DNA of 64,000 nt from Magnolia sinica (lineage: Eukaryota; Streptophyta; Magnoliopsida; Magnoliales; Magnoliaceae), in assembly GCF_029962835.1 (NCBI RefSeq), contig NC_080575.1, positions 63,219,493 to 63,283,492 on the forward strand, written 5' to 3'. Below the pieces are notes generated by a model that searched no databases, was not told the origin of the DNA, and was given only the letters and a program-made list of their open reading frames with translations. Of the stretch, positions 6,003 through 64,000 are shown piece after piece; position 1 is the stretch's first letter, and every line of letters starts with the position of its first letter. The translations under genes were made by a program, and so were the position numbers.

Positions 6003-6044
6003 CCATTTTCGCGCCCGACCCTGCTACGGAACCAAAGATGTGAG

Positions 6045-13935: not shown

Positions 13936-14112
13936 TTATTTAGGCTTAGGTAGACACTAGATAATTAGATTTGAGTATGAGTGTATGACCTATGTTAATA
14001 AAGATGATTTTATATTCTAACTAAACCCTAAGAAGCTCCAAGGCAAAACCTGTCCAATATAAGCAAATAAAAACATAAAGTCACTAATTCGAAAATAGAA
14101 AAAAATTATAAA

Positions 14113-18545: not shown

Positions 18546-18696
18546 TAGTGAGTTTATGTTTTTATTTGCTTATATTGGACAGGTTTTGCCTTGGAGCTTC
18601 TTAGGGTTTAGTTAGAATATAAAATCATCTTTATTAACATAGGTCGTACACTCATACTCATATGTAATTATCTAGTATCTACCTAAACCTAAAGAA

Positions 18697-21729: not shown

Positions 21730-22295
21730 CTTGTGATTGTGAGTATATATTTGTGTTAAGGTAAGTATTTGCAGCAGACAGCTCACAACAGTATTATTGC
21801 AAGAAGCCATGCACACACTTGACACCGCCGAACTTGTATTTAAAATAGCTCCCCTGAAAACCAATCAAGTAATCCTTAATCAAGTTGTAGGGGAGTATAT
21901 CAGACACTACTAATTATTTTTTTTTAATATTCTTGACTTAAGGATGACAGGTCATAGACAGGAATCACAGTCACGTGCACAGGTATGTTCGAGAAATTCC
22001 TCAAAAATAATTGCAAACACTTAATGTAAGATATTTTCATTTTACATTCATTCTAATATATCTATCATTGATAGTAGATAGTTAGAAAATTAAATATAAG
22101 AATTTTGTAGTCAAATTCAGGTTATCTGGTTCATAAATTCATCAGACAGTCCGATACAACTTCTCACCAAAGAGTGGACCGTTACACCACCATAAACATG
22201 TTCCAATTTATAAATGAATGCATATTTGGAATGCTTAGAATATTCTGGATTTAATCCATATTTTTTCATATTTTTTTGGCAAAAAAAAAATTTTT

Positions 22296-41108: not shown

Positions 41109-42519
41109 TAGAGCTGGGCATATTTGATCCGATTCAGTGGATTTGACCCAATCAGACTCGATCTGACCCATTCTGAACCGAACCGATGGCCTGGATCGGT
41201 GCGGATCGAGTAGGGCCATTCAGATCCGACTGTTTTTTCGATCGAGATCAGGTTGTAGTCAATCCGGACCGATTCGATCCGAAGTGAAAATAAATACTTC
41301 TACTTTTTCCTATGGTATGGTCCACTTGAGCTTTGGATATGCATCAATTTTAGGTTCAACCACTAAAATGATCTGAAAAAATGAATGGACGGCGTGGATA
41401 AACCACATGCATTCGTGGTGGGCCCCATTAGAGTTTACTCGCCACTGAGTTATGTGCACAACACGTCAACAGGCAACAAGCTACAGCTGTACCACTGAGT
41501 TACGTGCTGTGCACGTCAACACGGGTAGGCGGCGAGAGTCCCTATTAAAGTGATGTAACCAAGTTCCGTGGGCCGCACCATGATATATGTTTTGTATTCA
41601 CACCTTCCATCCATTTGGAGAGATCATTTCAGGGCAATATCCAAAGAATGAATTAAATCTAAAACTCCAGTAGACCCCAACACAGAAAGCAGTGGGGACA
41701 GTGAAGCCCACCATTAAAAACTTCTAAAGGCCACAAAAGTTTTAGATCAACTTGATATTTGTGTTTTCCCTTATTTTTGTCTTTTTCAACTTTTGAACAG
41801 GTTGGATTTCAAATAAACATTACTGTGGGCCTTTGGATAGTTTCAACGGTGGGAATCACTCTCCCCATTGTTTTCTATGGTGGGATCCACTATAGCTTTT
41901 TTTCTACATCATTCTTTGGCTCATGCCCTAAAATGATATCTCAAAATGGATGGACTGTGTGGATACAACACATACAGCATAGTGGGGCCCACAGAACTTG
42001 GTGACGTTGCTTTAGTAGCCCACTTGCTCAACTTGTCATCTGATGGGACACAGATGACAGCTAAGGTGTAGATACGTGTCATGCAAAGACAAGGGGAGAC
42101 GTGCCTCGAGCTCCAAGTTGTACGAACGGTTCAAATGAGATCAAAATTACATGGGCTCCACAATGATGTATTTATTATATCCATATCGTTTATCCATTTT
42201 TCGTGATCATTTTAGAGCATTTGAAAAAAAAAAAGAATCATATATAAAGCTCAAATGGACCACACCGAAAATAGCAGCAAGGACAATGATTTTCACCGTT
42301 AAAAAAATCGATTCGAATCATACCCAACCTGATCCGACTCGGTTTCCCTGACCGAGTCGGACTCGGTTCGGGTCAGGCCAACCATGCATCGGATCGGTTC
42401 GAGCCAGATGTCCCAGACTCGGTCCTAGATCGGATCGAGTTCGGGTCAGCCCATGTAGATTTCAGACCGAATTGAGTTGGACCCATTCCGATCCAACTCG
42501 GTCTGATGCCCCAGCTCTA
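41109..42519. mobile_element. hAT element with TAGAGCTGGGCA ends, inside Harbinger
   Basis: The left end is TAGAGCTGGGCATATTTG. The right end, inverted, is TAGAGCTGGGGCATCAGA. Flanks TGCAGGAC (41101-41108) and TGCACGAT (42520-42527) match 6 of 8. Both subterminal regions are degenerate repeats of GATCCGA/CGACTCGG. The interior is occupied by a half copy and a full copy of the long-inverted-repeat family (about 41310-41435 and 41555-42005) and another half copy (42140-42300). No transposase is present. Its ends match the element at 52857-53698. Confidence 0.75.
41555..42005. repeat. Long-inverted-repeat element, full copy
   Basis: The left arm starts ACCAAGTTCCGTGGGCC and holds ATATATGTTTTGTATTC and CCATCCATTTGGAGAGATCA. 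The right arm ends ACATACAGCATAGTGGGGCC and CACAGAACTTGGTGACG, so the outer ends pair as well. The middle has AGATCAACTTGATATTTGTG. Confidence 0.8.
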
Positions 42520-44838: not shown

Positions 44839-44843
44839 CATTG

Positions 44844-45521
44844 TGATGGGGTTTTCCTCCTTAGTTCAAAGGAGAGGTAGTGCAGCGACCGTGTTGCTCG
44901 ACCGGTCGAGGCTCGCTTGACTCGAAGTCCAGCATGCTAGATTTTTTAGCCTCGACCAGTCGAGGACCTGGCTCGACTAGTCAAGGGTTATGCAAATTCT
45001 GTGCGATTTTGTGCAGACTGGATAAATTTGAGGCGGTATCGCAGAGGTACGGAAGGGGAGTTGCCTAAAATATAAATAGGGGTCCTTAGGGCTATTCTAG
45101 GGTATGCTAAGGCGTTTTCACGACTAAGGTGAGAGAGAAAAGAGAGAGAGGAAGCTTGTGGAAGGGAAGATTCTGCTCGTAGAGGTGACTGCGCAGTCAA
45201 CGTCTCGGCGCTTCTACGTCCTCGTGATCGGTGAGATCTCTCCATTTTTCATTATTCTCTTATTGTTCATCCACTCCTACGTGAGTGAAGAAGGTTTGAT
45301 CCAAGCGGTGTGTGCTTGTGATCGGTTATAACGTTCTACTTCATAGTGAATTGTTGCTCTGGACTAGGTCTCGTGGTTTTTACCTCTTCGAGTGTTTTCC
45401 AAGTAAAATCTCTTGTGTCGTGTGGTTTGTGCTTTGATTTATTTCATTGCTTTATTATATCTCATAATTCTAGTGTTTTAAAGAGGCGAGATCCTATGGT
45501 TTTGTGCAACGCAACCCAACA
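44844..45521 (+). repeat. 5' LTR of the copia element (678 bp)
   Basis: The start is TGATGGGGTTTTCCTCC and the end is GCAACGCAACCCAACA. Upstream of the TATA box (TATAAATA, 45071-45078) lie imperfect palindromes of the form CTCGACCGGTCGAG and CTCGACTAGTCAAG (44896-44990). GAGAGAGAAAAGAGAGAGAG follows the likely transcript start. The 3' LTR has an extra roughly 80 bp of palindromes. Confidence 0.92.
45071..45078 (+). promoter_or_regulatory. TATA box in the copia 5' LTR
   Basis: TATAAATA within CCTAAAATATAAATAGGGG is followed by GGTCCTTAGGGCTATTCTAG. The equivalent box in the 3' LTR is at 49819-49826. It would direct the genomic transcript. Confidence 0.75.
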
Positions 45522-45524
45522 AAG

Positions 45525-45536
45525 TGGTATTAGAGC
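45525..45536 (+). promoter_or_regulatory. Primer-binding site of the copia element
   Basis: TGGTATTAGAGC lies three bases after the 5' LTR. It matches the usual plant copia site complementary to initiator methionine tRNA (TGGTATCAGAGC) except for one C to T change. Confidence 0.88.
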
Positions 45537-45568
45537 GTTTAGGTTGGTTGAATAGAGTGGGATCAAGG

Positions 45569-48500
45569 ATGATCAGTCTCAATGGTTCTAACTGGACTAT
45601 ATGGAAAGCTAAGATGGAGGACTTGCTTTATTGCAAGGACTTGTATGCTCCAATTCTAGGCATATCAGCAAAGACAAAGAATATGCTAGATGATGATTGG
45701 AAGAAGTTAGATCAGAAGGTGGTGGAGTTTATTAGACAATGGCTGGACGATTCTGTATTCCACCATGTGTCTAGGGAGACCTCAACAGCTAGCCTATGGC
45801 TAAAATTGTAAGGGTTGTATGAGAGGAAGATAGCCGACAATAAGTTTTTTCTGATAAGACGACTTGTGAATCTCAAGTTCAAAGATAATGGTTCTGTGGT
45901 TGAGCACATGAATGATGTCAGCAATATATTGAACTAGCTCTTCGTTTTGAAGATGGTCATGGACGATAAACTACAGGCTTTGCTATTGCTTAGCTCTTTG
46001 CTTGACAGTTGGGAGACATTGGTGGTGTCTTTGAGTAATTCCACGCCAGACGAAAAGGTGTCCATGGAACAGGTAACTAATTGTCTCTTCAATTAGGAGA
46101 CAAGGAGGAAGTCTCAGGGGTTTACTCAATAAGAGGCCCTTGTGACACAAGATCGGGGGAGAGGAAAGAACAGAAAGGGCGGGAAGGCCCGGGATAAATC
46201 AAGAGATAAGTCGAGTGTTAGGAAGGATGTTGAATGCTGAAATTGTGGCAAGAAGGGCCACTACAAGCATGAATGTCATAAGAAGAAGCATGACAAGAAA
46301 GGAAAAGGAAAGGAGAAGGAAGATGAATTAGACTCCACTGCAGTCTCTTCAGATGGCGACGTTGTAGTTATTCTTTCGGCAGATCATGATGTTTGTCTCA
46401 TGGCTACGAGTCAGGACACCGACTGGGTGATAGACTTGGGAGCCTCGTTTCATACAACTCCACGTAGAGATTTCTTCACAAGCTACAAGTCAGGTGACTT
46501 TGGGACCGTGAACATAGGAAATTCTGGCATATCGAAGATCGTAGGGGTCAGTGATATTTGTGTGAAGACCGATGTGGGCTGCACATCGGTTCTCAGGGAG
46601 GTGAGGCATATTCTAGACCTTCGCCTCAACTTGATGTCGATGGGAAGGTTGGATGATGATGGCTATGAAAGCCGATTTGTTGGTGAGCACTAGAAGCCCA
46701 TCAAGGGTTCGTTAATCGCAGCCAGAGGAAACAAGTGTTGCATCCTTTACAAAGCAAGTGTCAGTGTGTGTAAGGTTGGGTTGAACACAGTGGAAGATTC
46801 AGCTACTGACATGTGGCATAAGCGTCTAGGCCACATGAGTGAAAAAGGGCTTCAACTACTAGCAAAGAAGCGACTCCTTCCAGATGTGACATGTATACCT
46901 CTCAAAACTTGTACTGACTATTTATCCGAGAAACAATATAGAGTTTCATTTGTTAAATCTGCTTATCATGTTAATAAAGTGCATGCATTAGATTTAGTTT
47001 ATTGTGATGTTTGTGGTCCTATGAGGATAAAAAACTTAGGTAGGGCATTGTATTTTGTCACTTTTATAGATGATCATCTAGGAGGGTTTAGGTTTATGCT
47101 TTGAAATCCAAGGACAAGGTCTTTGGTGTGTTTAAATTATTTTATGCTATGGTCGAGAGAGAGACAATTAGATTATTAAACTGCATCCGCATTAACAATG
47201 GTGGTGAATACATTGGCGACTTTCATGAGTATTGTAAGTCCCTGGGTATACGACATGAACAAATGGTTCCCAAGACCCCCCAACATAATGGTGTAGCTGA
47301 GTGAATGAATCACACCATTGTATAGAGAATCAGATGCATGTTATCCCATGCGAAGTTGCCCAGGATGTTCTGGGGAGAAGCAATGTACGGCAGTGTATTT
47401 GATAAACAGGTCTCCATCAGCCCCGTTAAATGGAGAAGTACCTGAGAAGGTATGGACTGGATAAGATCCATCGTACAATCATCTTAGGGTCTTTGGATGC
47501 AAGGCATCTGTTCACGTACCAAAGGATGAGAGGTCTAAGCTCGATACGAAGATCAGGCAATGTATGTTCTTGGGGTACGATGATGAAAAGTTCGACTATC
47601 AATTGTGGGATCCGACCGAGAAGAAGCTCGTCAAGAGCAGAGATGTGGTTTTCTTTAAAGATCAATGTATAGAAGACATTTGTAAGCCAGAGTAGACCCA
47701 ACCTAGTTCAAGTGAGCTAGAGGACATGGATCCGGTTATTCCTCCTATGGTGCCTGATGACGGAGGAGTACAACAAGGTGTAGAGGAGAGGGAGTTCCTA
47801 CAGAAGATGGATCGGGGGAGCAGCCCCCACTTGATCCACCAGTTGAGCAACAGGTGAGGAAGTCATATAGGGACTGACATCCGTACAAGAAGTACTCACC
47901 GCATGAGTACATTATGCTCACTGATAGGGGAGAGCCAAAAGATTATTTTGAGGCCCTATCCGACGAGCATAAGGGGGAGTGGTTGAAAGTTATGTAAGAG
48001 GAGATAGAATCCTTGCATAAGAACCACACCTATAATATGGTGAAATTGCCTAAGGGCAAGAAAGCTTTGAGCAACAAGTGTGTGTTTAGAAAGAAAGTTG
48101 AGAAGAATTCATAAATGAGGTTCAAGGCCAGACTTGTGGTGAAAAGGTTTGGTCAGAGGAAAGGTATAAACTTCAAGGAGATATTCTCACCAGTGGTGAA
48201 GATGACATCCATATGGGTGTTGCTTGGGTTGGCAGCTAACATAGATCTGGAGATAGAACAATTAGATGTTAAAACTGCCTTTCTCCATGGTGACCTGGAA
48301 GAAGAGATCTATATGCACCAACCAGAGGGGTTCGAAGTTAAGGGCAAAGACATATGGTGTGTAGGCTAAAGAAGAACTTGTATGGGCTGAAATAAGCTCC
48401 AAGACAATAGTACAAGAAGTTCGACTCGTTCATGTTAAAACATGAATATGGCAACGGAGTCAGACCACTATGTGTTCACGCACAAGTTCTTAGATGGTGA

Positions 48501-49493
48501 TTTCTTAGTTCTGTTGTTATACGTTGATGATATGCTCATCATAGGTAAAGACATCAAGAAGATCGACAAGCTAAAACAGGAGTTGGGAAAGTCGTTTGCG
48601 ATAAAAGACTTGAGCTCGGCTAAACAAATTATAGGAATGGAGATAACTCGTGACAGAAGCAACAGAAAGCTTTGGTTGTTACAAGAGTGGTATTTTGAGA
48701 AAGTCCTAAAGCGGTTCAATATGAGTGTAGTGAAGCCGGTCAGTACTCCACTGGATGGTCATTTTAAATTGAGCGACAAGTAGTATCCAAAGATGAAGGC
48801 AGAGGTAGATGAGATGAGGAAGATACTCTATACATCAGTGGTAGAAAGTTTGATGTATGCTATGTGTCTACGTGCCCAGACATAGCATTTGCGGTTGGTG
48901 TTGTCAGCCGGTATCTTGTCAATCCTGGCAAAGAACATTGGGCAGTAGTGAAATGGATACTGCGGTATCTAAGAGGCTTATCCAGGTTGAGCCTATGCTA
49001 TGGTGATGGAAAACTTGTGTTAGAAGGCTACACAGATGCAGATATGGCAGGTGACATAGACTCCAGGAAGTCTACATCAGGGTTCATGTTCACCTTTGCA
49101 GGGAGAGTCGTCTCTTAGCAGAGCAAGCTACAGAAGGTCGTAGCATTGTCGATGAGAGAGGCCGAGTACATTGCGTTCATTGAGGCATGTAAAGAGATGC
49201 TTTGGATGAAGAGGTTCCTATGGGAACTTAGCCTGAAGCACGAGCAGCACGTAGTCTATTGCGATAGTTAAAGTACTATATACTTGAGTAAGAATCCAAG
49301 TCAGCACTCCAAGTTGAAGCACATAGAGATTCGATATTACTGGATCAAAGATACTTTGAAACAGAATGTGTTATAGCTTGAGAAGGTCCACATGAACGAT
49401 AATAGGTCAAATATGATGACCAAGGCATTACTCAAGGGCAAGTTTGAGGTTTGTATAAACCTGACTGGCTTGAAGAAAAAGAATTCCTCTTGA
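45569..49493 (+). pseudogene. Copia gag-pol polyprotein, many stops
   Basis: Start MISLNGSNWTIWKAKMED is a typical copia gag. The knuckle CxNCGKKGHYKHECHKKK has its second position as TGA for Trp. Protease: DTDWVIDLGASFHTTPR, with DLG instead of DSG. Integrase: MWHKRLGHMSEKGLQLLAKK and YCDVCGPMRIKNLGRALYFV, then a shifted frame with INNGGEYIGDFHEYCKSLGI and PQHNGVAE. Reverse transcriptase: FKARLVVKRFGQRKGINFKE, LDVKTAFLHGDLEEEIYMHQ and VLLLYVDDMLIIGKDI, with the catalytic YVDD intact. RNase H: GYTDADMAGDIDSRKSTSGF and KVVALSMREAEYIAFIEACK. The end is LTGLKKKNSS with TGA at 49491. Many stops sit where Gln or Trp is expected (for example KxAPRQxYKKF at about 48390), consistent with C-to-T decay. 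Confidence 0.92.
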
Positions 49494-49495
49494 GT

Positions 49496-49511
49496 CGGAA
49501 AGGGAGAGATT
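49496..49511 (+). promoter_or_regulatory. Polypurine tract of the copia element
   Basis: CGGAAAGGGAGAGATT lies immediately before the TGATGGGG start of the 3' LTR and would prime plus-strand synthesis. Confidence 0.75.
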
Positions 49512-50271
49512 TGATGGGGTTTTCCTCCTCAGTTCAGAGGAGAGGTAGTGCAGCGACTGCGCTGCTTGACCGGCTGAGCAGGCTGCTCGACTGGTCGAAG
49601 GGAGTTGCTCGACCAGTTGAGTCTCGACTCGAAGTCCAACATGCTAGATTTTTTGGCCTTGACCAGTTGAAGGCCTGGCTCGACTAGTCGAGGGTCCACT
49701 CGAATAGTTGAGGACCTGGCTCGACTAGTCAAGGGTTACGCAGATTTTGCGCGATTTTATACGGACTGCGTAAATTTGAGGCGGTTTTGCAGAGATGCGG
49801 AATGGGAGTTGCCTAAACTATAAATAGGGGTCTCTAGGGCTATTCTAGGGTATGATAAGGCGTTTTCACGACCAAAGTGAGAGAGAAGAGAAAGAGAGAG
49901 AGGAAGCTTGTGGAAGGGAGGATTCTGCTCGTAGAGGTAACTGCGCAGTCGACGTCTCAGCGCTTCTATATCCTCGTGATCGGTAAGATTTATTCGTTTT
50001 TCATTATTCTCTTATTATTCATCCACTCCTAAGTGAGTGAAGAAGGTTTGATCCAAGCGGTGTGTGCTTGTGATCGGTTGTAACGTTCTACTTCATAGTG
50101 AATTGTTACTCTGGACTGGGTCCTGTGGTTTTTACCTATTCGATGGTTTTCCACGTAAAATCTCGTGTTGTATAGTTTGTGTTTTGATTTATTTCATTGC
50201 TTTATTATATCCTATAATTCTAGTATTTTGGAGAGGTGAAATCCTAAGGTTTTGTGCAACGCACCCCAATA
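49512..50271 (+). repeat. 3' LTR of the copia element (760 bp)
   Basis: This LTR is colinear with the 5' LTR but about 82 bp longer. The extra material is additional imperfect CTCGACYRGTCGAG palindromes at about 49575-49620 and 49690-49715. The TATA box is at 49819-49826 in CTAAACTATAAATAGGGG. It ends ACCCCAATA before CATCG. Confidence 0.92.
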
Positions 50272-50276
50272 CATCG

Positions 50277-50820
50277 TTTGGCCCATGTCCTCACATGATA
50301 TGAAAAAATTGGAGACAGGTAGATTTCTAACAAACATCACAGTGGGCTCCATCGAACTTGCTATGCTGTGGTGGGAAGTTTGACCGTCGCAGGCAAGGGA
50401 CACCATGTGCAGTAAGTTATTGTACTTAGAATCTAGGGGCTATGTAGGAAGTCCTTGCACGCTCAGAAGCTGGGGGCTGATGTTCGTGAGAAATTCACTC
50501 CATTGTATTGGAAGCTTGTGTTAGGACATGGGCCCAAAAATAAGTAGATTTAAAACTCAAGTGGGCCGCTGCACAGAAAAAAGTAGGCAGTGAAACTTCT
50601 ACCATTGAAATCTCGTGGAGTCCACCTTAATATTTATATGCCATCCATGCTGTTCATAAGGTCACTCCTGTGAGGATAAACCAAAAACAAAAAAATATTA
50701 GCCTGATCCAATAGTTATGTGGCAACACAAATGTTTGAATAATGGATGTTTAATTCTTACTTATATTATGTGGTGTGGACCCACTTGAGTTTTGGATTGC
50801 CTCATTTTTTGATTCATCTC
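50277..50820. repeat. Two fragments of the long-inverted-repeat family
   Basis: A right-arm piece (about 50277-50360) ends AACATCACAGTGGGCTCC. A second, near-complete copy (about 50440-50830) has TTAGGACATGGGCCCAAAAA, CTCAAGTGGGCCGCTGCAC, TGTTCATAAGGTCACTCC and TGGTGTGGACCCACTTGAG. Both abut the 3' end of the copia element and may have been its insertion target. Confidence 0.65.
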
Positions 50821-51350
50821 TGACGCAGATTTCCTGTGAAAGCCTTCTCCAAGAAGTTCCTGCAGAAGGATGCTGGGTGGGGCCCACTTCAATGTATGTG
50901 AGAAATCCATTCCATCCATCCATTTATCCATATGAAGAGATCAATTTAGGATGTGCAGCCAAAAATGATGTGCATAACTCGAGTGGGTAACACGAGGAAA
51001 AGTTGAGAAAACAAATTCCTACCATTGAATCCTTCGTGAGCTCGACCTTGATGTAACCGTTTATAGAGTCATTTCCAATTGAATGAAGTGGAAACACCAA
51101 AAATATACTCTGATACAGAACTTTTATAGTCATAAGAATGCTTCAACGGTGCTCACTGAATGCCCGTTGTTTCCTCTCGTTTGGGCCACTTGAGTGTTGG
51201 ATATATCTCATTTTTGGTCTAAAGTCCTAGATGAGCTAGAAAACCGGATGGACAAGGTGGATTTCTCACAAACACCCATGTAGGCCCCAACAAGCATCCT
51301 TGTGCAGGAACTTCCTGCTAAAAGCTTTGGCAGGAAACCTGCGTCCGTTC
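50820..51350. repeat. Long-inverted-repeat element, TTCCTG subfamily, full copy
   Basis: It starts ACGCAGATTTCCTGTGAAAG and GAAGTTCCTGCAGAAGGATG, then GGGTGGGGCCCACTTC. It ends with CAAGCATCCTTGTGCAGGAA, CTTCCTGCTAAAAGCTTTGG and CAGGAAACCTGCGTC. The outer TTCCTG/CAGGAA extension matches the copy at 5640-6002. Confidence 0.8.
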
Positions 51351-52848
51351 ATCTTCTAACATGATCCGGAAAAATGAATGGCGGTGGATTTCTCAAAAAT
51401 ATCACGGTAGGACCCATGTACTTTATGAGCGCAGGGCAGAGTCTAAGACAGTCCACGCCCTAGGCTGAGCATGGAGGAATCGTATGATGCGTAGCCCCAC
51501 GCTTTGAATTATGAGACCTGTAGCCACGGCTAGGTAATCCAGAACATTGGTCTGTTGTGCCCCCATGTTATATGTACTATATGTCCAAGTTCTCTGTGGT
51601 GGAATGATTTTGACCATTGGATTTGCGGCCCATGGATAGATAGTTAAGAAGAGAAATACAGTGATTTAAGTTCAACCGAAAATGGTCCTAATATTGATCG
51701 TTAGATTGGGACCCTAATCCGATTGCCAGAGATTGGATGGTTAGGATCCGACAATTGCTGTGGGTTTAAATTCAACTGAGTCGGTATGTGCTCTGTGAAC
51801 CATGGACCAACATCACCTCCTACAAATGGTGCAAAACTATCATTGTAGCCTTTACCATCGAAGTTACCTACCACGCATATTCAATGTCATTACATGCAAC
51901 GTACGTGTACCATCTCCAGACTTTTCATTTGTTGCCCCTCCCGTAAACGTTGGCATACTAGCCATCTCACAAACATAACGGTGGGGCCCCCAGATTTCAA
52001 ATGGGCCGTCAGGGACGAGTCCAACGGAGAGACCATAACCCTGGGCAATTAGCATGTATTAGTGGTTGTCGTCTTCATCTTCTTCTTTGTGTGCGTGTCA
52101 AGTGGGCGTTCGCAATTTCTTTCAGGCCATTTTTATTTTTCCAGATGGGTTTATTTCTTAGATGATTTTAGGCATTATCTTACCAGAAATCAGCAGATGG
52201 AGCAACTGTTAGTGTTATATGTCCGCACGATTCAATCAAACATGAGGCCATATTTAGTATTATGTGAATGCACGATTCAATCAAACATGAGGCTACACGT
52301 GTTAATGAGGGCCTTAACATGTGCGATTGGGATTAGAATAGGGCCGGCATGCTAGAGTCATACTTGACTCAAGGTTAATTGAACATTGGTGCCCCTGTGT
52401 TGAGATAAACTGATTAAGACCGAACTCATGGGATCGGGCCACCCATTCAACCACAGACGATTACAGCCATGGGATGATTTTAGAAGAGTAGGGTCTAGTC
52501 ATTCCAAATGAATTTTTTACCTTGCATTTAAGGACTTTTTCTTTCACCAGTAATAATAAACTTTGTATTTCTCAATAAAATGAAGATGAACATATTTAAA
52601 ACAAAAGGGGTTAAAAATGCTGATTTTATTGATATGGATCCGAAGCTTAAGTACAATCGACAGAGAAATAAACAGAAGATAAATACTTGAGATCTCCTAT
52701 TGGACAAACAATCAAGACAAATTTGTCAACATGATGTGATCTTCCAAGTAATCAGTTGATCAGGATCCAACGATAGAAGGTCATGGATATTTATATTACT
52801 CCTAAGCATATTGTAGCAATGGCGCTAGGTAGTAGTGATCTATCCTAA
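51351..52848. other. Unassigned sequence with a small duplication
   Basis: No gene is recognised. Small pieces of the long-inverted-repeat family occur at about 51360-51425 and 51945-51985. A phrase ACGATTCAATCAAACATGAG occurs twice (about 52227 and 52271), a 44-bp local tandem duplication. The open frame across it has no known domain. Confidence 0.45.
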
Positions 52849-52856
52849 CCTAAACC

Positions 52857-53143
52857 TAGAGCTGGGCAGGGGACTACTTGACTTGCCTAACTCAACTCAT
52901 CTAACTCATTTAGACCCAACTCGACCTGACCCGAACCGAATGGGTGAGTCAGTTCGAATCGAGTAGGTTTCTCCCAATCCGAACTCAAACCGAGTCGAGT
53001 TCGAGTTACCAAGTAACTCGACTCGACTCGATCTGAAACCGATTCGACTCAGTTTTGGGTATATATATATAATAAAAAACCTCGACCTGATCCTAAACTA
53101 GCTCTTCATCCCTCATCCTCCTCTTCCAATCCTGACAACCACC

Positions 53144-53187
<44 letters not shown>

Positions 53188-53232
53188 CTCCACTCCCTCT
53201 CATCCTCCTCTTCCAAGCCCACCACCATCACC

Positions 53233-53277
<45 letters not shown>

Positions 53278-53338
53278 CCTCCCTCCTCTCCACTCCCTCC
53301 CATCCTCCTCTTCCAAGCACACCACCATCACCACCACC

Positions 53339-53380
<42 letters not shown>

Positions 53381-53429
53381 CCACTCCCTCCCATCCTCCT
53401 CTTCCAAACCCACCACCACCACCACCACC

Positions 53430-53480
<51 letters not shown>

Positions 53481-53698
53481 TCTCTCAATCCTAATCGGTG
53501 CCAACTAGAACCGACTTGGTACTTTTTTCTGGGTCAAACTTGGTCTGGATCAATCTAGGCCAGACTCGGATTCGGATCTGTTTAGGCATGCTGGACTCAG
53601 AACTAAGTCGAGTCGATTTTGTGTCAGGCCTATTTCAAAAACCGGATCGAGTCGGGTCAGCCCTAACTCGGTCCGACTCGACTCGATGCCCAGCTCTA
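52857..53698. mobile_element. hAT element with TAGAGCTGGGCA ends, perfect target duplication
   Basis: The left end TAGAGCTGGGCAGGGGAC and the inverted right end TAGAGCTGGGCATCGAGTCG share 12 bp exactly. The flanks CCTAAACC at 52849-52856 and 53699-53706 are identical. Subterminal regions are repeats of GACTCGA/TCGAGT. The centre is a CT-rich minisatellite (53110-53480). The 842-bp element has no transposase and belongs to the family of 41109-42519. Confidence 0.92.
53110..53480. repeat. CT-rich minisatellite, four units of about 90-110 bp
   Basis: Each unit has CATCCTCCTCTTCCAA, then a CCACCACCATCACC-like run, then 15-25 CT pairs, then CCTCCACTCCCTC. Long Arg/Glu frames on the minus strand are artefacts of this composition. 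Confidence 0.93.
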
Positions 53699-53706
53699 CC
53701 TAAACC

Positions 53707-55264
53707 TCAGACATTGTGTAGTGTGGCTGGACAGAAGTGGAGGGGCAAAAAAATAATATAAAAGATAAAAGTAGTGTTGCGTTATGAAGATATATTTTGT
53801 TTGACGTGGGCCTAGAGCTCTTCATCACAATTTTCTTTTATAGCTTTAGAAGGCGGTAAAACCCTTGCTGGTTTTCCTTGCTAACCCATGATTCTTGACA
53901 ATTACGATGCTCGATTATTTTCTAATCATCCCAGCTTGGCCAAAGAGATTTTCACAAATTAGAACCGTTTTCAGATAACTGGCTAACATGACTGTGGAGA
54001 TCCGTTGATATTATAGGATTAGTTTTGCTCAATCCAAATCGATCTTGAATTCATTGTTTCCCATCCGCTCTGATATTGATCCAATTCTTAAATCTTCATA
54101 ATTGCCACAAGAGCACCGATCGTCTTTTGGAAGATCTCCCATTTTGGAAGGATTACGCTAGATGACCATACAAAGCATATTCAAATTTGTGATTAGATCC
54201 TTATCTCGACGGGTATTTTATATACTTGTCGAGCATGTTGTCTTGGTCACATGTGCCACATGAATTAGGGCTACATGTCATTCGTCACTTCGTCTTTGCA
54301 ACATATGTGTGGTTTTTCTACCACTTTGCTTTTGACAGGTGATTTGTCTCTGAATGAGGGGGGGCAAAAGATATCCTCGAGTGCGAATAAGATTTTATCA
54401 TTATTAAGCGCGTGATGCCAACACGTGGCAGTATCTTATTAGTCCACATCAGTATGCCAAAAGCGGGTGTAAACAATGTCTCACATCCCTTTGCATTGGA
54501 AGATGTGATGGGACGTTTGACATTTCAACTTCGACGGTCGCTCTGACACGCAACATGTGGTGGCATGGGGTACACACTTGTCTGCCGTGCGCATTAATGG
54601 CTACGTCGAAAATCTCCTGTCATGATTGCTAACTTTTAATGCGGATATGAAATCCGATAGCCATTTCATTTTTAAATGGTTTTGTTTCCATCCTTATCAT
54701 CTTTTCACTTTTATAATCTTTTGATTTCTTAATTTTTCCTATGGTTCATGTGGTGGCAACACCCTGAAAAAATGATGCTCTATGTGGGTGGTGGCTAAAG
54801 CTCAGGAGCTTAGCGATTATTTTATTAAGAAAAATGAAAATATGTAAAGACGAAGTACCCAACTTCTTGAAGGACAATTGGCTAGATACATTTTATTTCC
54901 TTTACTTTCTCTTTCACTTGCTATAATGCATGTAACCGTTTCTGAGAGAGATTTTTGTACCATGCCTATGTAACTAGCCAATTAAGGAAATACAAAAGTT
55001 CCTTTTCACATATGTTGATTCTTACATTTTCCCTTTTTATTATTTATTTTCATCGGCCTGCTCAACTGCTAATTCATCTTCTCTCTACATTAACTCCCAT
55101 AGATTTGGGTAATACTTTTTTCAAATATTGGCCATTAATGAGATTCCTACTTTCATAATCATTCATGTCTTATAGCAGATATGCTCCTCTTTTCAGCACT
55201 CACTTGATTTTTAGCAGTCCTTCCCATGTTGGAGACCACTTACCATACTTACAACTTTTAACAT
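53707..55264. other. Unassigned sequence
   Basis: About 1.5 kb with no recognisable gene, element end or tandem repeat. It may be old host intergenic DNA. Confidence 0.45.
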
Positions 55265-56646
55265 TGTTCACAACCCCAAGTGTAGGGTCGCGATGTAGTA
55301 ATAATCTCAGTGAGACCGAGGTCGAATCCACAGGGACTAATCTCATGTGATTTCTGAAAGCAACTAGAAGAAGAACTAGAAAAAGATGAAAACCTAAATT
55401 TAAAATATTTGAGAGTAATTGTGAGAGATTTAATGAAAAACTTAAGAAATTCAAAGGTGGGAAACTAGGGTTTCCAAGGATCTACTTGTAGAGATCAGGG
55501 AGATCTATACTTGATTCATGTCACACGATTGGAATCGGAGTCCCATCCTATCCAATTGGAAGATATCTGAGTAAAATCAAATTTGAACTTTCTTTGACCT
55601 AATTCTTAATGGAAGAGTAGTGTGAGAACTAGAAGGGATAACGTCACAAAACCATGCCCAGGAGACAAGGCAAACAACAGGATTTACCAATCCCATAACC
55701 AATTTGGGAGAATTGTGAAAGTTAGGGATGATTCCATCATCCAACCATACCCAAGGGACGATGGTGAACAACAAGATTTTCTAAATTCATAATCTCAATA
55801 TATGAAAAGAACATACTCAAAGCTATCGCAGATCCATTGTAATTTGAGTTATAACAAACCATTAAAAACTGAAAGTATTCCTTATAATCAAACTAGAATC
55901 AAAGAGAGTTCAATATAAACATGAATTAAAGCAATAGAAACATCCCATCACGCTACAAGCTTCACCTCTTAGCCATAGCTAAGAGGTTTAGCCAACCATA
56001 GACATGATTAAACTAGAATCTCTTAATAAAAGCATAAAAACTACTAAGGAAAGGGAAGAAAAACTCTGGGTGATGGCTTCTCCACACTTTTTCTCCACTT
56101 CTCAAACCCTAAATGATGCTTAGGGGTGCCCTAGGGACCCCTATTTATAGTTTTAGTCTTTAGACTTTGGCACTGAGTTGGAAATTTTTGAAAACCGCTT
56201 CAAATTTCCGCACTTTGTGTGCTGGCTGCGTAACTCAGGACTAGTCGAGGGTCACCTTCGACTGGTTGAGGATGACTTGATTTTAGCAATTTTAGTTGCT
56301 AGAGTTCGGGTCGAGGCAGCTCGATTGGTCGAGCCAGGACTAGTCGAGCGTACACAGGACTAGTCAAGCCGGAACTAGGACTGGTCGAGGATAACACAAA
56401 TTCACTTCAAAACTCCAATTTTCTTTATTCTTAACTTGATTTTCTTAGATCTTTAGTATGTGCATTCTTCATTCTTGGTCTTGGTAATTCTTGAGCATTA
56501 AATCCATGCTTTTAATATCCTTTTTAATCCAAGCTCTTAAATTCACCTTTCACCACAAACATGATTAAAATAGAACATTAAGCACTATCATGTTCATAAA
56601 TCTAAGGAATAACTATGGTCCAATATGCAATATTTGACCCTCAACA
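55265..56646 (-). repeat. 3' LTR of the Athila-like element (1,382 bp)
   Basis: On the minus strand it starts TGTTGAGGGTCAAATATTGC (56646) and ends GGTTGTGAACA (55265), giving TGTT/AACA ends. It contains a TATA box on the minus strand (56149-56142) preceded by CTCGACTAGTC-type palindromes (56235-56395). The U5 side matches the partial 5' LTR at 63603-64000, which fixes the left border. Confidence 0.88.
56142..56149 (-). promoter_or_regulatory. TATA box in the Athila-like 3' LTR
   Basis: The minus strand reads AAACTATAAATAGGGGTCCC and then TAGGGCACCCC. The neighbourhood is nearly the same as around the copia TATA boxes. Confidence 0.75.
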
Positions 56647-56660
56647 AAATCCCCAACTAG
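56647..56660 (-). promoter_or_regulatory. Polypurine tract region of the Athila-like element
   Basis: The minus strand reads CTAGTTGGGGATTT directly before the LTR start TGTTGAGGG, as in other elements of this group. Confidence 0.65.
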
Positions 56661-57774
56661 CATTTTGCTAGTCCCAGGTAAAGTATGCGAAAAATAAGTT
56701 TAATGCGCAATGTTCAACCTTTTGCAAAAAACAATCTTTTGTGTAATCAAGTATGAATTAGTAGACTCAAGATGAGAAATTGAGATTTTGAAGACCTAGA
56801 GCCGAACCATATAAGCAATTGATCAAGTAGGTTCTTTATCCATTAAGTCAAAGTATAGTTCGCATATCAAGTTTTTCAACGTGTTCAGTGAAAATACTAT
56901 ATTTTCATAATTAGCCATGCTCATCACTTCGAGATTGGTTGAAAACTTACGTACTGATTCCGAACTTATCCCCTTTTTCTTCTTTTTCCATTTTTTGATT
57001 TTATATCGACGGTTATTTGTATTTATTCCTCTTCTTTAGACATTACATGCTTTTCAAAGACATTTTTCATTCCCTCAAAGATGTTGGCATTCTTCATTCT
57101 TTACGACCTCCTTATCGATCTCCTATTTTTTAACTGGTTCTTTTTCTTCTTTTAAGGTGGATAAAACTCTCCGGACTCGGTTCTCAATATCTTTCAATGA
57201 TCATCATACTAACAATCAGAAAATCTAGTACTATTCATAAAAACAATTTGAATAACATAATATTTGAACTTACTCTTAATCACTTGAATGTAAGAACCAT
57301 AAGTGATAGGTCACGTAGTTGCTCTAACTCCAACAATTCAAAATTCGATTTCTATCTTAACTTCATGCTCAAAACAGTCTTAAATACACAACTTATCGCT
57401 TTCCAAATAGATAAACATTGAAAATTTTTCAAAAATTTTACTCAAAACTGAGAAAATACTGATTATGTTACCTAATCTCCCATCCCCAACCTAAAATCTA
57501 CATTGTCCTCAATGTAAAAGAAAGAAGCATGATTAGCAAAAGAGACAATAACATAAGTGAAGGAGAAGTGATGGAAAGATAGTACCTGATGAAGAGATTT
57601 TGTAGCTTTTTCCAAAAGATCTCAGCATGAAGGTGGGTTAGCACAAGAGTTAATCAACAAAAAACAAACTACCTAAAACTAACGGAAAGCAAACTATCCA
57701 AAATCGCATAAAGCCGACTATCTTAAAATGGCAGAAAATAATAGACCTAACTATACATCTGTCAGATTAGGAGA
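56661..57774 (-). other. Non-coding region between pol and 3' LTR
   Basis: This AT-rich stretch holds only short frames. In Athila-type elements an envelope-like gene can lie here, but no such frame, signal peptide or membrane segment is visible. Confidence 0.55.
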
Positions 57775-58865
57775 TCAATCCTGATAAATCGGATCATTCA
57801 GAGGTATGGACATGTCCTCTGAATCAAATTTCTCAATAAATGGCTTTAATCGATGTCCATTTACTTTGAATTCTTTGCCATTGTTCAGATCTTGTATCTC
57901 ATCGGCCACATGAGAATAGACATTAGTAACAGTGAAATGACCGGTCCAACGAGATCAGAGTTTGCTTGGAAAGAGATGTAACCGAGAATTATACAAGAGC
58001 ACTTTTTGACCTGGTGTGAATGATTTTCGAAGAATGTGTTGATCATGAAATACCTTCATCCTGTCCTTGTAAATTCTCGCGTTCTTGTATACATCATTCC
58101 GGATTTCGTCGAGTTCATTCAACTGAAGTTTGCGTAGCGAGCTAGCATTGTCTAAATTGAATTCAGATTTTTGATCACCCAGTAAGCCCTATGTTCCAAC
58201 TCCACAGGCAAGTGGCAAGCCTTCCCATAGACAAGTATAAAGGGAGACATTCCGATAGGTTTTAAATGCAGTACGGTAAGTCCATAAAGCATCGGTTAAT
58301 TGGACAAACCAATCTTTTCGATCAGGGTTAACCATTTTCTCTAAGATATGTTTAATTTTTCTATTGAAAATCTCATCTTGCCCACTTGTTAATCGTGGAT
58401 GACTTATTACAAAAATGTGAGCCCCCATCACTAATGATGGCTTGAGGCATTCCGAACCGGGAAATGATGTTCTCTTTTAAGAATTTAATGACCGTTTGGT
58501 GGTATTGTTCTGGCATAAAATTGCTTCAACCCATTTAGTGACATAGTCTACGGTGAGCAAAATATATAAATTTTCAAAAGATTGGAGGAATGGTCCCATG
58601 AAATCAATGCCCTAGTAATCAAATGCTTCAATGATCAGAATGGGGTTAAGAGGCATCATATTTTGACAGGACAATGCTCCCGACTTCTGACAATGCTCAC
58701 AAGTTTTGTAAAACTCATGAGTGTCCCTGAACATAGTGGGCCAGTAAAAGCCACACTGCAGAATCTTAGCCATGGTCTTTTTAGCAGAAAAGTGACCACC
58801 ACAGGCCTGAGAGTGACAGAAGGAGATGATGCTTTGGTGTTTATTGTTTGGCACACATCTCCTTA
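57775..58865 (-). pseudogene. Athila-like integrase
   Basis: The minus strand has the zinc-binding part [20 protein letters not shown] with [15 protein letters not shown] (H-H-C-C), then, after frame changes, GIDFMGPF-like sequence with the first catalytic Asp. It also has [20 protein letters not shown], where the catalytic Glu expected in NREIK is Lys, and [20 protein letters not shown]. The C-terminal part contains [16 protein letters not shown], a stop, SRWTGHFTVTNVYSHVADEI and NGHRLKPFIEKFDSEDMS, ending PIYQD at 57775. Several stops make it inactive. Confidence 0.85.
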
Positions 58866-60400
58866 ATATTTGGTCTAGGCAATATTTAAACAAATATGGA
58901 TCATCCCAGAAGAACTTACGAACCTTGGTGAAGAATTTTTTCTTATCTTTAGTAGTCCAACGTGTCGGCATGAAACTTGAGGTAAGATAATTAGCAATAT
59001 CAGCAAACCAATGTGAATGGGAGACTTTGAACAATTGTTCGTCAGGGAACATGTCATTTATATGTGTCGTCTCAAGGGAATAAGAGAGATCAAGGTGGGA
59101 AAGACGGTCAACCACTACATTCTCTACTCCCCTTTTATCTTTTATTTCCAAATCAAATTCTTGGAGTAGGAGGATCCATCTTATCAGGCGGGGCTTAGCA
59201 TCATTCTTAGAAAGAAGATACTTGAGCACTGCATGATCTGTATAAATGACGATCTTGGATCTAATCAAGTAGGACCTAAATTTGTCCAAAGCGAACATTA
59301 TGACTAAGAGTTCCTTTTCCGTAGTCGAGTAATTCACTTGGGTAGGATTTAGAGTTCTACTTGCGTAATGAATAACGTAGGGCTTCTTTTCTTTTCTCTG
59401 GCTTAGAACCACCCTAAGAGCATAGTCAGACACGTCGCACATAAGTTCAAAAGGAATGCTCCAGTCGGGTGGCTGCATGATATGTGCAGTGGTTAACATG
59501 TCCTTAAGCTTAGTAAAAGCTTCCTGGCATTGCTCAGTCCACTCGTATGGTGAATCCTTTTGAAGTAGATTACATAGAGGATGAGAGAGGTGAATAAAGT
59601 CCTTTGTGAATCTCCTGTAAAAATCGGCGTGTCCTAGGAAGGATCACATGTCTCGTATGTTCTTGGGTGGAGGCAAGTTAGAGATAAGATCAATTTTAGC
59701 CTTATCTACTTCAATTCCCTTGGATGAGATGATATGTCCAAGGATAATTCCCTTATAAACCATGAAATGACACTTCTCCTAATTGAGTACCAAATTCTTT
59801 TCTTCACATCTTTTCAGCACAAATTTAAGATTCTCTAAGCAATCGCTGAAAGATGGATCAAAGACAGAGAAGTCGTCTATGAAGCCCTCTAGATATTGCC
59901 CCACTATTTCAGAAAAAATACTCATCATACATCACTGAAAAGTGGAGGGGGCATTACACAGTCCGAATGGCACCCTTCGGTAAGCAAAGTGCCAAAGGGA
60001 CATGTGAATGTGGTCTTTTCCTGATCTTCAGGGGCTATCTCTATCTGATTGTAGCCTGAATATCTGTCAAGGAAACAACAATAGGAATGACCAGCTAACC
60101 TTTCTAAAATTTGATCAATGAAGGGTAGGAAAGTGGTTCTTCCTCGTGACGGTATTCAACTTCCTGTAGTCAATGCATATTCTCCAACTAATAGTAACTC
60201 TAGTTGGCATGAGTTCATTATGGGCATTGGCTACGGTGGTGATTCCGGACTTCTTAGGAACCACTTGAGTTGGACTCACTCATTGGCTATCGGATATTGG
60301 GTATATGATACCTACATCCAATAGTTTAAGAACCTCAGTCTTAACCACTTCCTTCATGTTTGTATTTAGTCTATGTTGTGATTACCGAGAGGTCTTCACA
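58612..60400 (-). pseudogene. Athila-like reverse transcriptase and RNase H
   Basis: From about 60300 down, shifting frames give SWRICIDYRKLNTVTRKNHF, FPLPFIDQILERLAGHSYCC and LDRYSGYNQIEIAPEDQEKT, then a damaged stretch and EGFIDDFSVFDPSFSDCLEN with the IDD catalytic pair. They continue with NLPPPKNIRDM and [20 protein letters not shown]. The long frame 59499-58612 carries RNase [41 protein letters not shown] and [20 protein letters not shown], then runs into the integrase zinc domain. The RT part is heavily mutated. Confidence 0.85.
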
Positions 60401-60737
60401 TTATCCTCAAGATAAATGCGGTGAGTACAAATCGAAGGGTTAATTCTCTTGAGATCCGCAATCGACCATCTAAGGGCTTCTTTGTGCTCAATAAGAGTAG
60501 AGATGATCATACTCTCCTATTCTTGCTCAAGGTGGGAAGAAGTCACCCGGTATGTCTTATCTTGACCTAAATAGACATATTTCAAATGAAAGGGCAAAGG
60601 TTTTAGGTCAAGCTTCAGTACCTTGAGGTTAGACGGTAGAGGCACCACATCAGTTTGGGACAATTCTTCAAATTATGGCTTCCACTGGTTAACTTCAAGT
60701 ACTGGCATAGTATTAAGCATGACACTCGTCTCCCTAA

Positions 60738-61808
60738 TCATGTCATCATCAAAATCATGGGATGGGACAGACACGTCTCTAGAGGGTCAGAGGATAAGGT
60801 CATCAAAGTCACGAAAGAGTCAATCATGTTAATGTCGTGGAAATCATCATCATCCTCTAACTGTTTTCCTGTGTTGAAAGAGAAATTCAACTCCAACGTC
60901 ATATTCCCGAAAGACATACTCATGACCCCATTCCTATAATTAATGATTGTGTTTGAAGTGGCAAGGAATGGGTGACCAAGAATGATGGGAATTTGAGTGC
61001 TCATATTACTAATGGGTTCCATATCGAGGATAATAAAATCTACCGAGTAGTAGAATCTGTCGACCTGGACCAACACATCCTCAATTACCCCTCTCGGTAC
61101 ATGAACTGAGTGGTCAACAAGTTGTAATGTGGTTAGGGTGGGTTTCAATTCACCCAAACGTAGCTGTTTGTAGACCGAGTAAGGAATCAAATTTAGGCTT
61201 GCTCTTATGTCAAGAAGTGCGTGCTTAATCCGGTAGTTCCCAATTATGTAAGTGATGGTTGGGCTACTGGGATCTTTGTACTGTTACGACACATCTTGCT
61301 TTAGGATGACACTCACTTTTTCAGTTAAAAAGATTTTCTTTTTGATACTTTGCTGTCTTTTGGTCGTACACAAATCTTTTAGAAATTTGGCATATGAAGG
61401 TATTTGCTTTACGGCATCAAGTAAAGGAATATTGACCTTCACTTGTTTCAACACCTCTAAAATGTCCTGAGAGTTAGAGAAAGGTTTTGGTGCAACCAAC
61501 CGTTGGGGGAATGGGGCAATCGGCTTGCCTTGAAATTCTGGTTCCAATTCTTGTGGAGCAGTGCTAGGTCTATCATTGTTGTCCTCTTCTGGGTCCTTAG
61601 GCTTTTTAGCCCTAACCGGAATAGTTTTGTCAATGGTCTTATCACTCTTAAGAATGGTGATAGATTTAGCTTGCTCAATCTGATTTGAAGAGCCTTGCTC
61701 CATCTGATTTGAAGAGCTTGGATCACTTATCTTGTATTGTGGTTTCAGATAGGGGAGATGTTGAGCAAGAAGCATCCCCCTTTCTATAACCGTAACACGT
61801 GAATCCAT
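60738..61808 (-). pseudogene. Athila-like protease region
   Basis: The frame 61808-61284 has IAPFPQRLVAPKPFSNSQDI and NIPLLDAVKQIPSYAKFLKD, the typical spacer before the Athila protease. After a frame break the protease reads ALLDIRASLNLIPYSVYKQL, where the expected D-L-G is D-I-R, then VHVPRGVIEDVLVQVDRFYY and QIPIILGHPFLATSNTIINY. The Gly to Arg change in the active-site loop should abolish activity. Confidence 0.82.
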
Positions 61809-62870
61809 CTTTTACATACATTTTGTAAGTTCTCGTATTTCTTGAGTAAGCTCTTGAGTTTATGTGGAATTTTGAACTGGTTCTTCCTGAGGTTTCACTT
61901 GATTTGGAATTTGATTAAAGAAACTTGTGGGGTAACAGCTTGTCCATTCCTCCAACTGAAGTTTGGATGATTTTTCCAATTAGGATTGCATGTATTAGAG
62001 GTAGGTCCATTGAAAGGGCTTTGGCAATTATTCACGACATTGGATTGCTCATTCAACACCTCTTGAAAGGAGAGGATTATTGGACAATTTTCAGTTGTGT
62101 GAACATTGCAAGCACAAATCCGCAAATAGTTTCCTTAACCATATCCTTCTTTAGTTCCATGGCCTCAAATTTCCTTATGAGATTAGACACTTTAACATTA
62201 ATATCATCATCCTCTTTAAGAAGGTATAATCCACCCCTCTCCTTTGATTGAGTGAGCCTAGAAGTGGTACTTGATTTTGGGTAAGTGTCTCATGATTGTG
62301 CATTTTTAGCAAGTCTATCCAAGTAGTCCTACACATCATCGAAATTTTTATTCATGAATTCTCTATTGCACATTGTCTCAACCAATTGGCGCATGGAAGA
62401 TGTTAGTCTATCATAGAAAAAGTGTGTAATGCACCATGTTTCAAAACCATTTTGTGGGCATGAACTGACAAGATCCTTGAACCGCTCCCAACATTGGAAG
62501 AATGTTTCATCCTCCTTTTGGGCGAAGTTCATAATTGACTTTCTAAGGGTGTTCGTTTTATGATGTGAAAAAAATTCTTTATGAATTCCCTTATCATGTC
62601 ATTCCATGTGCTAATAGATCTAGGACGTAGTGAATGCAACCATGTCTTAGCTTTCTCTTTCAAAGAAAATGGAAAGAGTTTTAGTCTGACCATGTCCTCA
62701 GACACGTTAGGAAAATATAAAGTGGTTATGATCTCATCAAACTCTTTCAAGTGCAAATATGGATTTTCAGATTCAAGTCCATAAAATTTTGGAAGGAGTT
62801 GGATCACCCCTGGCTTAATGTCTATATGTTTCGTATTTTCTGAAAAAATCATGCATGAGGGTGTACTCAC
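61809..62870 (-). pseudogene. Athila-like gag
   Basis: The start MSTPSCMIFSENTKHIDIKP leads to FYGLESENPYLHLKEFDEII and LFPFSLKEKAKTWLHSLRPR, then STWNDMIREFIKNFF, the classical retrotransposon gag core. In the next frame come DETFFQCWERFKDLVSSCPQ and FYDRLTSSMRQLVETM. A frameshift near 62530 and several stops between 62330 and 61810 disrupt it. The start is chosen at the first ATG of the long frame. Confidence 0.82.
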
Positions 62871-63578
62871 TCCTGCCGGTTATAAATAATCTTGCAAAGT
62901 ACGAGGCGGGGGTGCTTGATGCACCTCATTCTCATCCTAGAATTCCTCAACCCTAGGTTGAGGTTGTCTTCTCAGTTAATTAACTGGTTGATTTGCAGTC
63001 ATAACCTCAATTAACTCTGAGTATCTCGAGTGCTGTCTAATCATGTGATAGATAGATAACCCCTTAACCAATCCTCCTTCACTCAAAAGACGTCGAGTGT
63101 TATCACGAATTCACTTGGGCATGAAACACCCTCAGCCCTCAATTTCAGATTCTAACTTAAACCTAAAAGAGAGAAAGGAAATAGAAATCTAAAAATAGAA
63201 AGAGAGATGGAATTAAGAAGAAGTTACCAAATTGGAAGTTCCTAATTAAAATCCAGCAAAACAAAATAAAACAAGTCAGTTTCTAAAAACAAAAATTCTA
63301 AAATTAGAAAGTTCCTAAAAATAAAAATAGAAAGTAAACTAGTTTCTAAAAATGAAAAAGGACAGTTTCTAGAAAAAATAAAAAATAAAAAGTTTGTAAA
63401 AACTAATTAGGAAAGTTCTAAACCTAGAATTAGAAAGTAAGTTAGTTTCTAAGAAATCATAGAATTAGAAAGTTTCTAAAAATAGAAAACAAATCCTAAT
63501 CTAAAAATAGAAAATAGAAAAACCCTAATCTTAACCTAATTCTAAAACTAGCTAATCTCAGAAAAACGCAACCGTTAG
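62871..63578 (-). other. 5' untranslated leader of the Athila-like element
   Basis: It lies between the primer-binding site and gag, is A-rich on the plus strand (repeats of AGTTTCTAAAAAT around 63275-63480), and has no gene. Confidence 0.6.
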
Positions 63579-63596
63579 TCCCCGGCAACGGCGCTA
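63579..63596 (-). promoter_or_regulatory. Primer-binding site of the Athila-like element
   Basis: The minus strand reads TAGCGCCGTTGCCGGGGA, six bases after the LTR end. It matches the common plant gypsy site TGGCGCCGTTGCCGGGGA except for one base. Confidence 0.82.
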
Positions 63597-63602
63597 AAAA
63601 CT

Positions 63603-64000
63603 TGTTCACAACCCCAAGTGTAGGGTCACGAAGTAGTAATAATCTCGGTGAGACCGAGGTCAAATCCACAGGGACTAATCTCGTGTGTTTTCTGGAAGCA
63701 AATAGAAGAAGAACTAGAAAAAGATGAAAACCTAACTTTGAAATATTTGAGAGTAATTGTAAGATATTTAATGAAAAACTTAAGAAATTCAAAGGTAGGA
63801 AACTAGGGTTTCCAAAGATCCACTTGTAGAGATCAGGGAGATCTATGCTTGATTCAAGTAACACGATTGGAATCGGAGTCCCATCCTATGTAATTGGAAG
63901 ATATCTCAATAAAATCAAATATGAACTTCCTTTAACCTAATTCTCAATGGAAGAGTGGTGTGAGAACTGGAAGTGATACCATCGCAAAACCATGCCCAGG
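63603..64000 (-). repeat. 5' LTR of the Athila-like element, partial
   Basis: The U5 end (GGTTGTGAACA on the minus strand) starts at 63603, and the LTR continues past the window edge. It is closely similar to 55265-55665, the matching end of the 3' LTR, with scattered substitutions that show the element is not recent. Confidence 0.92.

Follow-up and report, generated by a model that had tools for sequence, protein, structure and literature searches.

A putative U3 promoter block common to a copia and an Athila/Tat-type gypsy retrotransposon of Magnolia sinica, probably shared through an old transfer

Can two retrotransposons of different superfamilies carry the same promoter in their long terminal repeats (LTRs), and if so, how did they come to share it? 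The question is raised by a stretch of 64,000 nucleotides (nt) of Magnolia sinica (assembly GCF_029962835.1, contig NC_080575.1, positions 63,219,493 to 63,283,492 of the forward strand), hereafter the window, whose DNA is plant-like and contains many transposable elements. It contains a copia element (44844-50271, plus strand) and, on the minus strand from 55265 to beyond 64000, a gypsy element of Athila/Tat type. A first-pass annotation, made from the sequence alone, had described one series of motifs in both copia LTRs and in the gypsy LTR, and had proposed template switching or convergence on one host factor as the cause. We find this series, in order, in all three LTRs, and we favor the reading that a U3 promoter was transferred between the two lineages long ago.

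The series belongs to a single colinear block, about 210-290 bp long, common to the U3 regions of both copia LTRs and of the gypsy 3′ LTR. By block alignment and profile it was placed at 44885..45092 (+) in the copia 5′ LTR, at 49550..49840 (+) in the copia 3′ LTR, where the palindrome array is longer, and at 56128..56408 (-) in the gypsy 3′ LTR. All three LTRs present the same order: CTCGACTAGTCGAG-like palindromes with a CTCGACYCGAA unit among them, then GTTAYGCA, AAATTTGARGCGGT and TATAAATAGGGGTCYYTAGGGC. With up to three mismatches allowed, the palindrome arrays comprise three matches in the copia 5′ LTR (44897..44985, +), five in the copia 3′ LTR (49586..49733, +) and five in the gypsy LTR (56236..56368, -). 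Downstream of them lie the islands AAATTTGAGGCGGTATC (45024..45040, +, located by motif search), AAATTTGAGGCGGTTTT (49772..49788, +) and AAATTTGAAGCGGTTTT (56191..56207, -), followed by the predicted core promoters TATAAATAGGGGTCCTTAGGGC (45071..45092, +), TATAAATAGGGGTCTCTAGGGC (49819..49840, +) and TATAAATAGGGGTCCCTAGGGC (56128..56149, -), each of which holds the sole sense-strand TATAWA of its LTR. The motif forms quoted in the first-pass annotation hold for the series in general but not for the copia 5′ copy, which has decayed: GTTATGCAA, AAATTTGAGGCGGTATC, ATATAAATAGGGGTC and TTAGGGC stand in their place, and the CTCGACYCGAA unit reads TTGACTCGAA. The block takes up about 208 of the some 250 nt that we infer for the copia 5′ U3. 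The palindrome array differs between the two LTRs of a single copia element flanked by a target-site duplication (TSD), with three against five matches and LTR lengths of 678 and 760, and such arrays may therefore shrink or grow after insertion.

Is the resemblance greater than chance would give? The palindrome, at up to three mismatches, was found 13 times in the window, and all 13 matches fall inside the three LTRs; the expectation was 1.10, and the maximum among 100 shuffles was 4. AAATTTGARGCGGTTTT, searched with the same tolerance, gave five matches, three of them in the LTR blocks, with 0.77 expected and no shuffle reaching five. The count of the TATA motif alone is unremarkable (four matches, three of them in the blocks; four were reached in 11/100 shuffles). 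In local alignments of whole LTRs, copia against gypsy scored 45 and 47, above every shuffle (maximum 31, 300 shuffles each), so that the outcome named in the first-pass annotation as refuting its claim, scores no better than shuffled sequence, did not occur; the reverse-complement controls scored 28 and 40. The blocks by themselves scored 100 and 105, whereas the best among 1000 shuffles of each reached 35 and 41, respectively; the reversed controls gave 17 and 21 and the reverse-complemented controls 48 and 63, the latter being high because the array is palindromic. Part by part, no shuffle of 1000 reached the observed score for the palindromes, in either copia copy under tight or loose scoring, nor for the TATA part throughout, nor for the middle part of the copia 3′ copy under both scorings. 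After masking of the palindromes and TATAAATA, the copia 3′ copy still scored 34 against a shuffle maximum of 27 (0/500). The R-U5 regions of copia and gypsy show no clear likeness, with 252 and 292 (tight) and 27 and 332 (loose) of 1000 shuffles reaching the score; the value of 27/1000, for the copia 5′ copy under loose scoring, is marginal and one of four tests. A profile of the three blocks, run over the window, found outside these LTRs just two stretches, at expectation values of 2.5 and 3.9. As a whole, the block is shared beyond chance, and chance is excluded as its explanation.

Searches were also made outside the window. Two pattern searches of viral contigs for the block gave no match and a third gave one contig, which we take as chance; no related loci were confirmed in the viral contigs; the pattern search of a collection of genome contigs gave no match; and the translated copia promoter piece 44865-45065 gave no candidate in a protein database.

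Do the two elements in fact belong to different superfamilies? Ten pieces were submitted to a Pfam domain search and seven matched. The copia internal domain (45522..49511, +), decayed by stop codons, yielded Retrotran_gag_2 (below Pfam's cut-off), Pol_BBD, gag_pre-integrs and, twice, RVT_2; one of its six pieces, 48813-49115, had no match. The gypsy internal domain (56647..63601, -) yielded Retrotrans_gag (PF03732) and RT_RNaseH with Integrase_H2C2, and two of its four pieces (60741-61283 and 58192-58476) had no match. These differing domain contents place the elements in different superfamilies, as the first-pass annotation had stated. At 44844-50271 we find an LTR pair with TSD, a tRNA primer site, and gag_pre-integrs before RVT_2, as in Ty1/copia elements; from 55265 to beyond 64000 we find the PF03732 gag, RT_RNaseH followed by the integrase zinc domain, and an Asp-tRNA-type primer, as in Ty3/gypsy elements of Athila/Tat type. 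Of 7985 scored candidates in the protein database, 7832 matched the RNase H piece of the latter at expectation values of 0.001 or less; among the best 120 of the 7832, those carrying an organism name are from flowering plants.

The intervals that the first-pass annotation gave as LTRs stand as parts of U3, while the full LTRs are longer. The copia 5′ LTR (44844..45521, +, length 678) has TG...CA ends and is repeated as the 3′ LTR (49512..50271, +, length 760); the element is flanked by the TSD copies CATTG (44839..44843) and, with one mismatch, CATCG (50272..50276), and its primer-binding site TGGTATTAGAGC, which we take to be of the initiator-Met type, begins at 45525, just past the 5′ LTR. 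By LTR repeat comparison, the gypsy 3′ LTR spans 1382 bp (56646-55265, -), and of the 5′ LTR only the R-U5 end lies in the window (63602..64000, -), its U3 falling beyond it. Adjoining the 5′ LTR is the Asp-tRNA-type primer site TTTTTAGCGCCGTTGCCGGGGA, presumably that of the Athila/Tat type. The copia LTRs are 89.8% identical over 676 columns (Kimura two-parameter distance, K2P, 0.112; 56 transitions against 13 transversions) and the gypsy LTR ends in the window 92.0% over 398 columns (K2P 0.086), so that neither insertion is new. Since divergence between the families is far greater in the block than within either LTR pair, the shared origin of the block would predate both insertions.

How is the similarity laid out? 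Copia and gypsy blocks are 59% identical, over 139/235 aligned columns for the copia 5′ copy and 164/278 for the 3′ copy, and the matches are clustered: permuted columns were as clustered in 8/5000 and 0/5000 cases, and equalled the longest match run in 145/5000 and 31/5000. The two copia copies, over the block region, are 88% identical (213/242) with evenly spread differences (2914/5000; longest run 2494/5000). Between the copia 3′ and gypsy copies there are islands of 17 nt, 16 of them identical, and of 22 nt, 21 of them identical, which stand in the same order and exceed one usual factor site. The spacers between the islands do not align between copia and gypsy and differ in length. Measured from TATA, the last palindrome half-site lies at -99, -99 and -100 and GTTAYGCA at -84, -84 and -85 in the copia 5′, copia 3′ and gypsy LTRs, respectively, with TAGGGC at +16 in all three.

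Two further properties of the arrays were considered and set aside. The CpG observed/expected ratio of the gypsy LTR is 0.96 in the array, against 0.00 upstream, 0.55 in the remainder of the block and 0.36 in R-U5; the contrast might suggest that the gypsy LTR acquired its array from elsewhere, a reading that was rejected because it is confounded by the CpG within the motifs. The arrays also fold better than shuffles (z of -2.82, -2.95 and -4.21), with z of -2.76 for the downstream part in gypsy and of 0.57 and -0.51 in copia; an RNA structure reading was rejected because palindromes alone would yield such folding.

What history would account for this layout? We consider it probable that the block descends from a single U3 promoter module, which passed between a copia and an Athila/Tat-type gypsy lineage, in whichever direction, long before the present insertions, and was then shaped by selection on its motifs. 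The islands are long and colinear, and the last palindrome and GTTAYGCA are equally far from TATA, which favors sharing by descent; the spacers do not align, which points to much time and to selection on the islands. Of the two explanations proposed in the first-pass annotation, sharing by descent is thus favored, while a recent switch is unsupported, given the islands and the unalignable spacers of unequal length. The module might have moved directly, or via another LTR family or a host promoter, within this plant's ancestry. Each family would afterwards have kept the working parts, namely the array of palindromic sites, the two further upstream motifs, and the TATA box with the downstream start region, while the spacers drifted; the block motifs have probably been under selection since the transfer. 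In function the block would be an ordinary RNA polymerase II promoter, with a host DNA-binding factor occupying the palindromes upstream of TATA; the predicted transcription start lies about 30 bp past TATA, at the U3/R boundary, where the shared stretch nears its end. The transfer may have occurred through RNA, as a first-strand transfer in R would leave a break at that boundary. The 3′ edge of the block does lie near the expected start, the site at which first-strand transfer joins R-U5 to the other U3; it does not decide the mechanism, because the promoter also ends functionally there.

Several observations weigh against an old transfer of the module. Outside the block, on its 5′ side, about 40 nt of U3 remain in copia and 236 nt in gypsy, and these unshared parts require a second junction, so that a single swap of U3 is insufficient; the upstream U3 of the copia 5′ copy is not clearly like that of gypsy (395/1000 shuffles reach the score under tight scoring, 74/1000 under loose). 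Spacing was kept in part only, as the AAATTTG island lies at -47 from TATA in both copia LTRs and at -58 in gypsy, and the CTCGACYCGAA unit at -196 (copia 3′) as opposed to -166 (gypsy). In the copia 5′ copy, the middle part is weak (5/1000 shuffles reach the score under tight and 11/1000 under loose scoring), and with palindromes and TATAAATA masked its score of 29 exceeds the shuffle maximum of 28 by a narrow margin (0/500). With gaps allowed in the alignment, the aligner itself accounts for part of the clustering. The recombination cases in the passages of the papers cited here lie within one family (PMC5668417) or involve co-packaged elements that are close relatives or left unspecified (PMC1950507), and none of them crosses superfamilies. 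Finally, the evidence comes from one locus with one decayed element per family, and the gypsy 5′ U3 lies outside the window.

The main rival is convergence, by which both families, selected for the same host factors and start machinery, would have assembled the sites one by one. This would explain why identity is concentrated in islands, why the spacers are unalignable and why spacing is only partly kept, and there is a precedent in passages on Sireviruses (PMC2829016): some elements from distant plants, with very little homology overall, carry nearly identical palindromic repeated motifs upstream of a conserved TATA. Independent assembly is harder to reconcile with islands of 17 and 22 nt that differ at one position each between the copia 3′ and gypsy copies and stand in the same order, with the like spacing from last palindrome to TATA, and with the presence of the CTCGACYCGAA unit in both arrays, decayed as it is in the copia 5′ copy; moreover, with palindromes and TATAAATA masked, none of 500 shuffles reached the score, narrowly so for the copia 5′ copy. 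We regard convergence as unlikely. Another possibility is that the promoter was inherited vertically from an ancestor that copia and gypsy LTRs had in common. A unitary LTR structure has been argued from profile models, with LTR trees that group the chromovirus part of the Metaviridae with the Pseudoviridae (PMC3601003); the conserved features in the passages of that work are short (end repeats, TATA, polyadenylation signal and a GT-rich stretch) and include no colinear block of this length, and the R-U5 regions at our locus are not clearly alike, so that such deep inheritance seems extremely improbable.

The age of the sharing bears on a further possibility, that template switching or gene conversion joined the two families shortly before the insertions. 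Recombination during reverse transcription is documented in plants within one family (PMC5668417), and switching between different co-packaged RNAs has been proposed (PMC1950507), as far as passages of these papers tell. A recent recombinant would be expected to carry a near-identical exchanged stretch with sharp junctions, and its differences should be spread evenly, as they are between the copia LTRs. We found 59% identity in the block, held in islands, as against 88-90% between the copia LTRs, together with clustered matches and unequal spacer lengths, and saw no sharp junctions. The clustering of identity between families, set beside the even differences between the copia LTRs, favors an old transfer over a recent template switch, which we judge very unlikely. 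The block might instead be a short transposon that inserted separately into each LTR, the second outcome named in the first-pass annotation as refuting its claim, since it is rich in inverted repeats and the gypsy array stands out from its upstream flank in CpG (0.96 vs 0.00). Against this, it occupies the greater part of the copia U3, each LTR has its single sense-strand TATAWA there, and the 64 kb window contains no further copy of it; an origin of this kind is scarcely credible.

Which host factor might read the block? The consensus of DUO1 is given as RRCSGTT in passages of PMC6290024, and GGCGGTT at 49780-49786 in the copia 3′ island and AGCGGTT at 56199-56193 in the gypsy island fit it. 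Each of these LTRs has one such site, and the decayed copia 5′ LTR has none; across the window there are 42 (0.66 per kb). The DUO1-type MYB site in the GCGGTT island is thus a weak consensus match and only a lead. Among 15 of 74 open-licence papers matched in a literature search, the review PMC6627097 alone contains both DUO1 and Athila. A W-box reading of the palindromes was rejected: TTGACY occurs in each array, yet it is derivable from CTCGAC by CpG decay, and transitions far outnumber transversions among the copia LTR differences. Host factors acting on LTR motifs include HSFA2 on ONSEN and WRKY on EVADE, according to passages of a review (PMC12786077). A bolder version of the transfer, which we think distinctly doubtful, sees in the block a mobile promoter cassette that LTR retrotransposon superfamilies of this plant lineage trade with one another and that is kept for tapping one host regulator, possibly a male-germline MYB together with a CTCGACTAGTCGAG-binding factor, so that unrelated elements would co-activate, co-package and keep trading.

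Other repeats occur elsewhere in the window. An inverted duplication of about 4.8 kb (10311-15042 and 17611-22286; 91.7% identity in one alignment) carries in its arms transposase-like open reading frames (ORFs), hAT-like by eye, and tandem arrays of about 168 bp, and ORFs that by eye resemble long interspersed nuclear elements lie between and beside the arms. At 5137-7258 and 41542-42018 lie self-inverted repeats that are related to each other (about 67-78% alike), measure about 450-670 bp and by eye resemble miniature inverted-repeat transposable elements. At 53102-53484 there are three to four CT-rich tandem units of roughly 95 bp with simple-repeat cores, and at 989-1297 a tandem duplication of about 152 bp with 94-96% identity.

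If U3 promoters do move between superfamilies, the time and place of a retrotransposon's expression cannot be read from its gene tree, and there would be a simple reason for unrelated families to be activated together. The block also offers a sequence tag for a genome-wide test of promoter movement. In the titles, opening lines of abstracts and passages that we consulted from open-licence papers, we saw no report of a U3 block common to copia and gypsy, which is not proof of its absence from print.

How does the block compare with known systems? The LTR profile models of Benachenhou et al. (2013, PMC3601003) likewise describe a common LTR layout across superfamilies; in the passages concerned, it consists of short general features, and plant Metaviridae LTRs were left unmodelled. 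In the Triticeae complex elements of Sabot and Schulman (2007, PMC1950507), exchange between different co-packaged RNAs also yields new elements; passages of that paper describe an internal third LTR and the same or closely related elements, with no shared U3 module. The ONSEN bursts of Sanchez et al. (2017, PMC5668417) produced recombinant LTRs by reverse transcription, according to its passages mostly fitting a first template switch in R and once within U3; that recombination is within one family, whereas the event proposed here is between superfamilies and old. A further comparison is with the repeated motifs of Sireviruses (Bousios et al., 2010, PMC2829016), which passages of that paper describe as short, CpG-rich palindrome arrays just upstream of a conserved TATA, with a suggested regulatory role. 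Those motifs have a CGG-CCG core (in all but Tnd-1) and belong to one copia genus, whereas the core here is CTCGAC-GTCGAG, and CGG-N0-6-CCG occurs zero times across the three LTRs. Nor is the present copia element of Sirevirus build: clustered identical polypurine tract copies were not found in 48301-49511, which holds two different purine runs of at least 10, one adjoining the LTR, and a stop codon of the pol frame lies ~18 nt before the 3′ LTR, leaving hardly any linker. In further contrast to the Sirevirus motifs, the array is here shared, together with the motifs downstream of it, by a gypsy element of Athila/Tat type.

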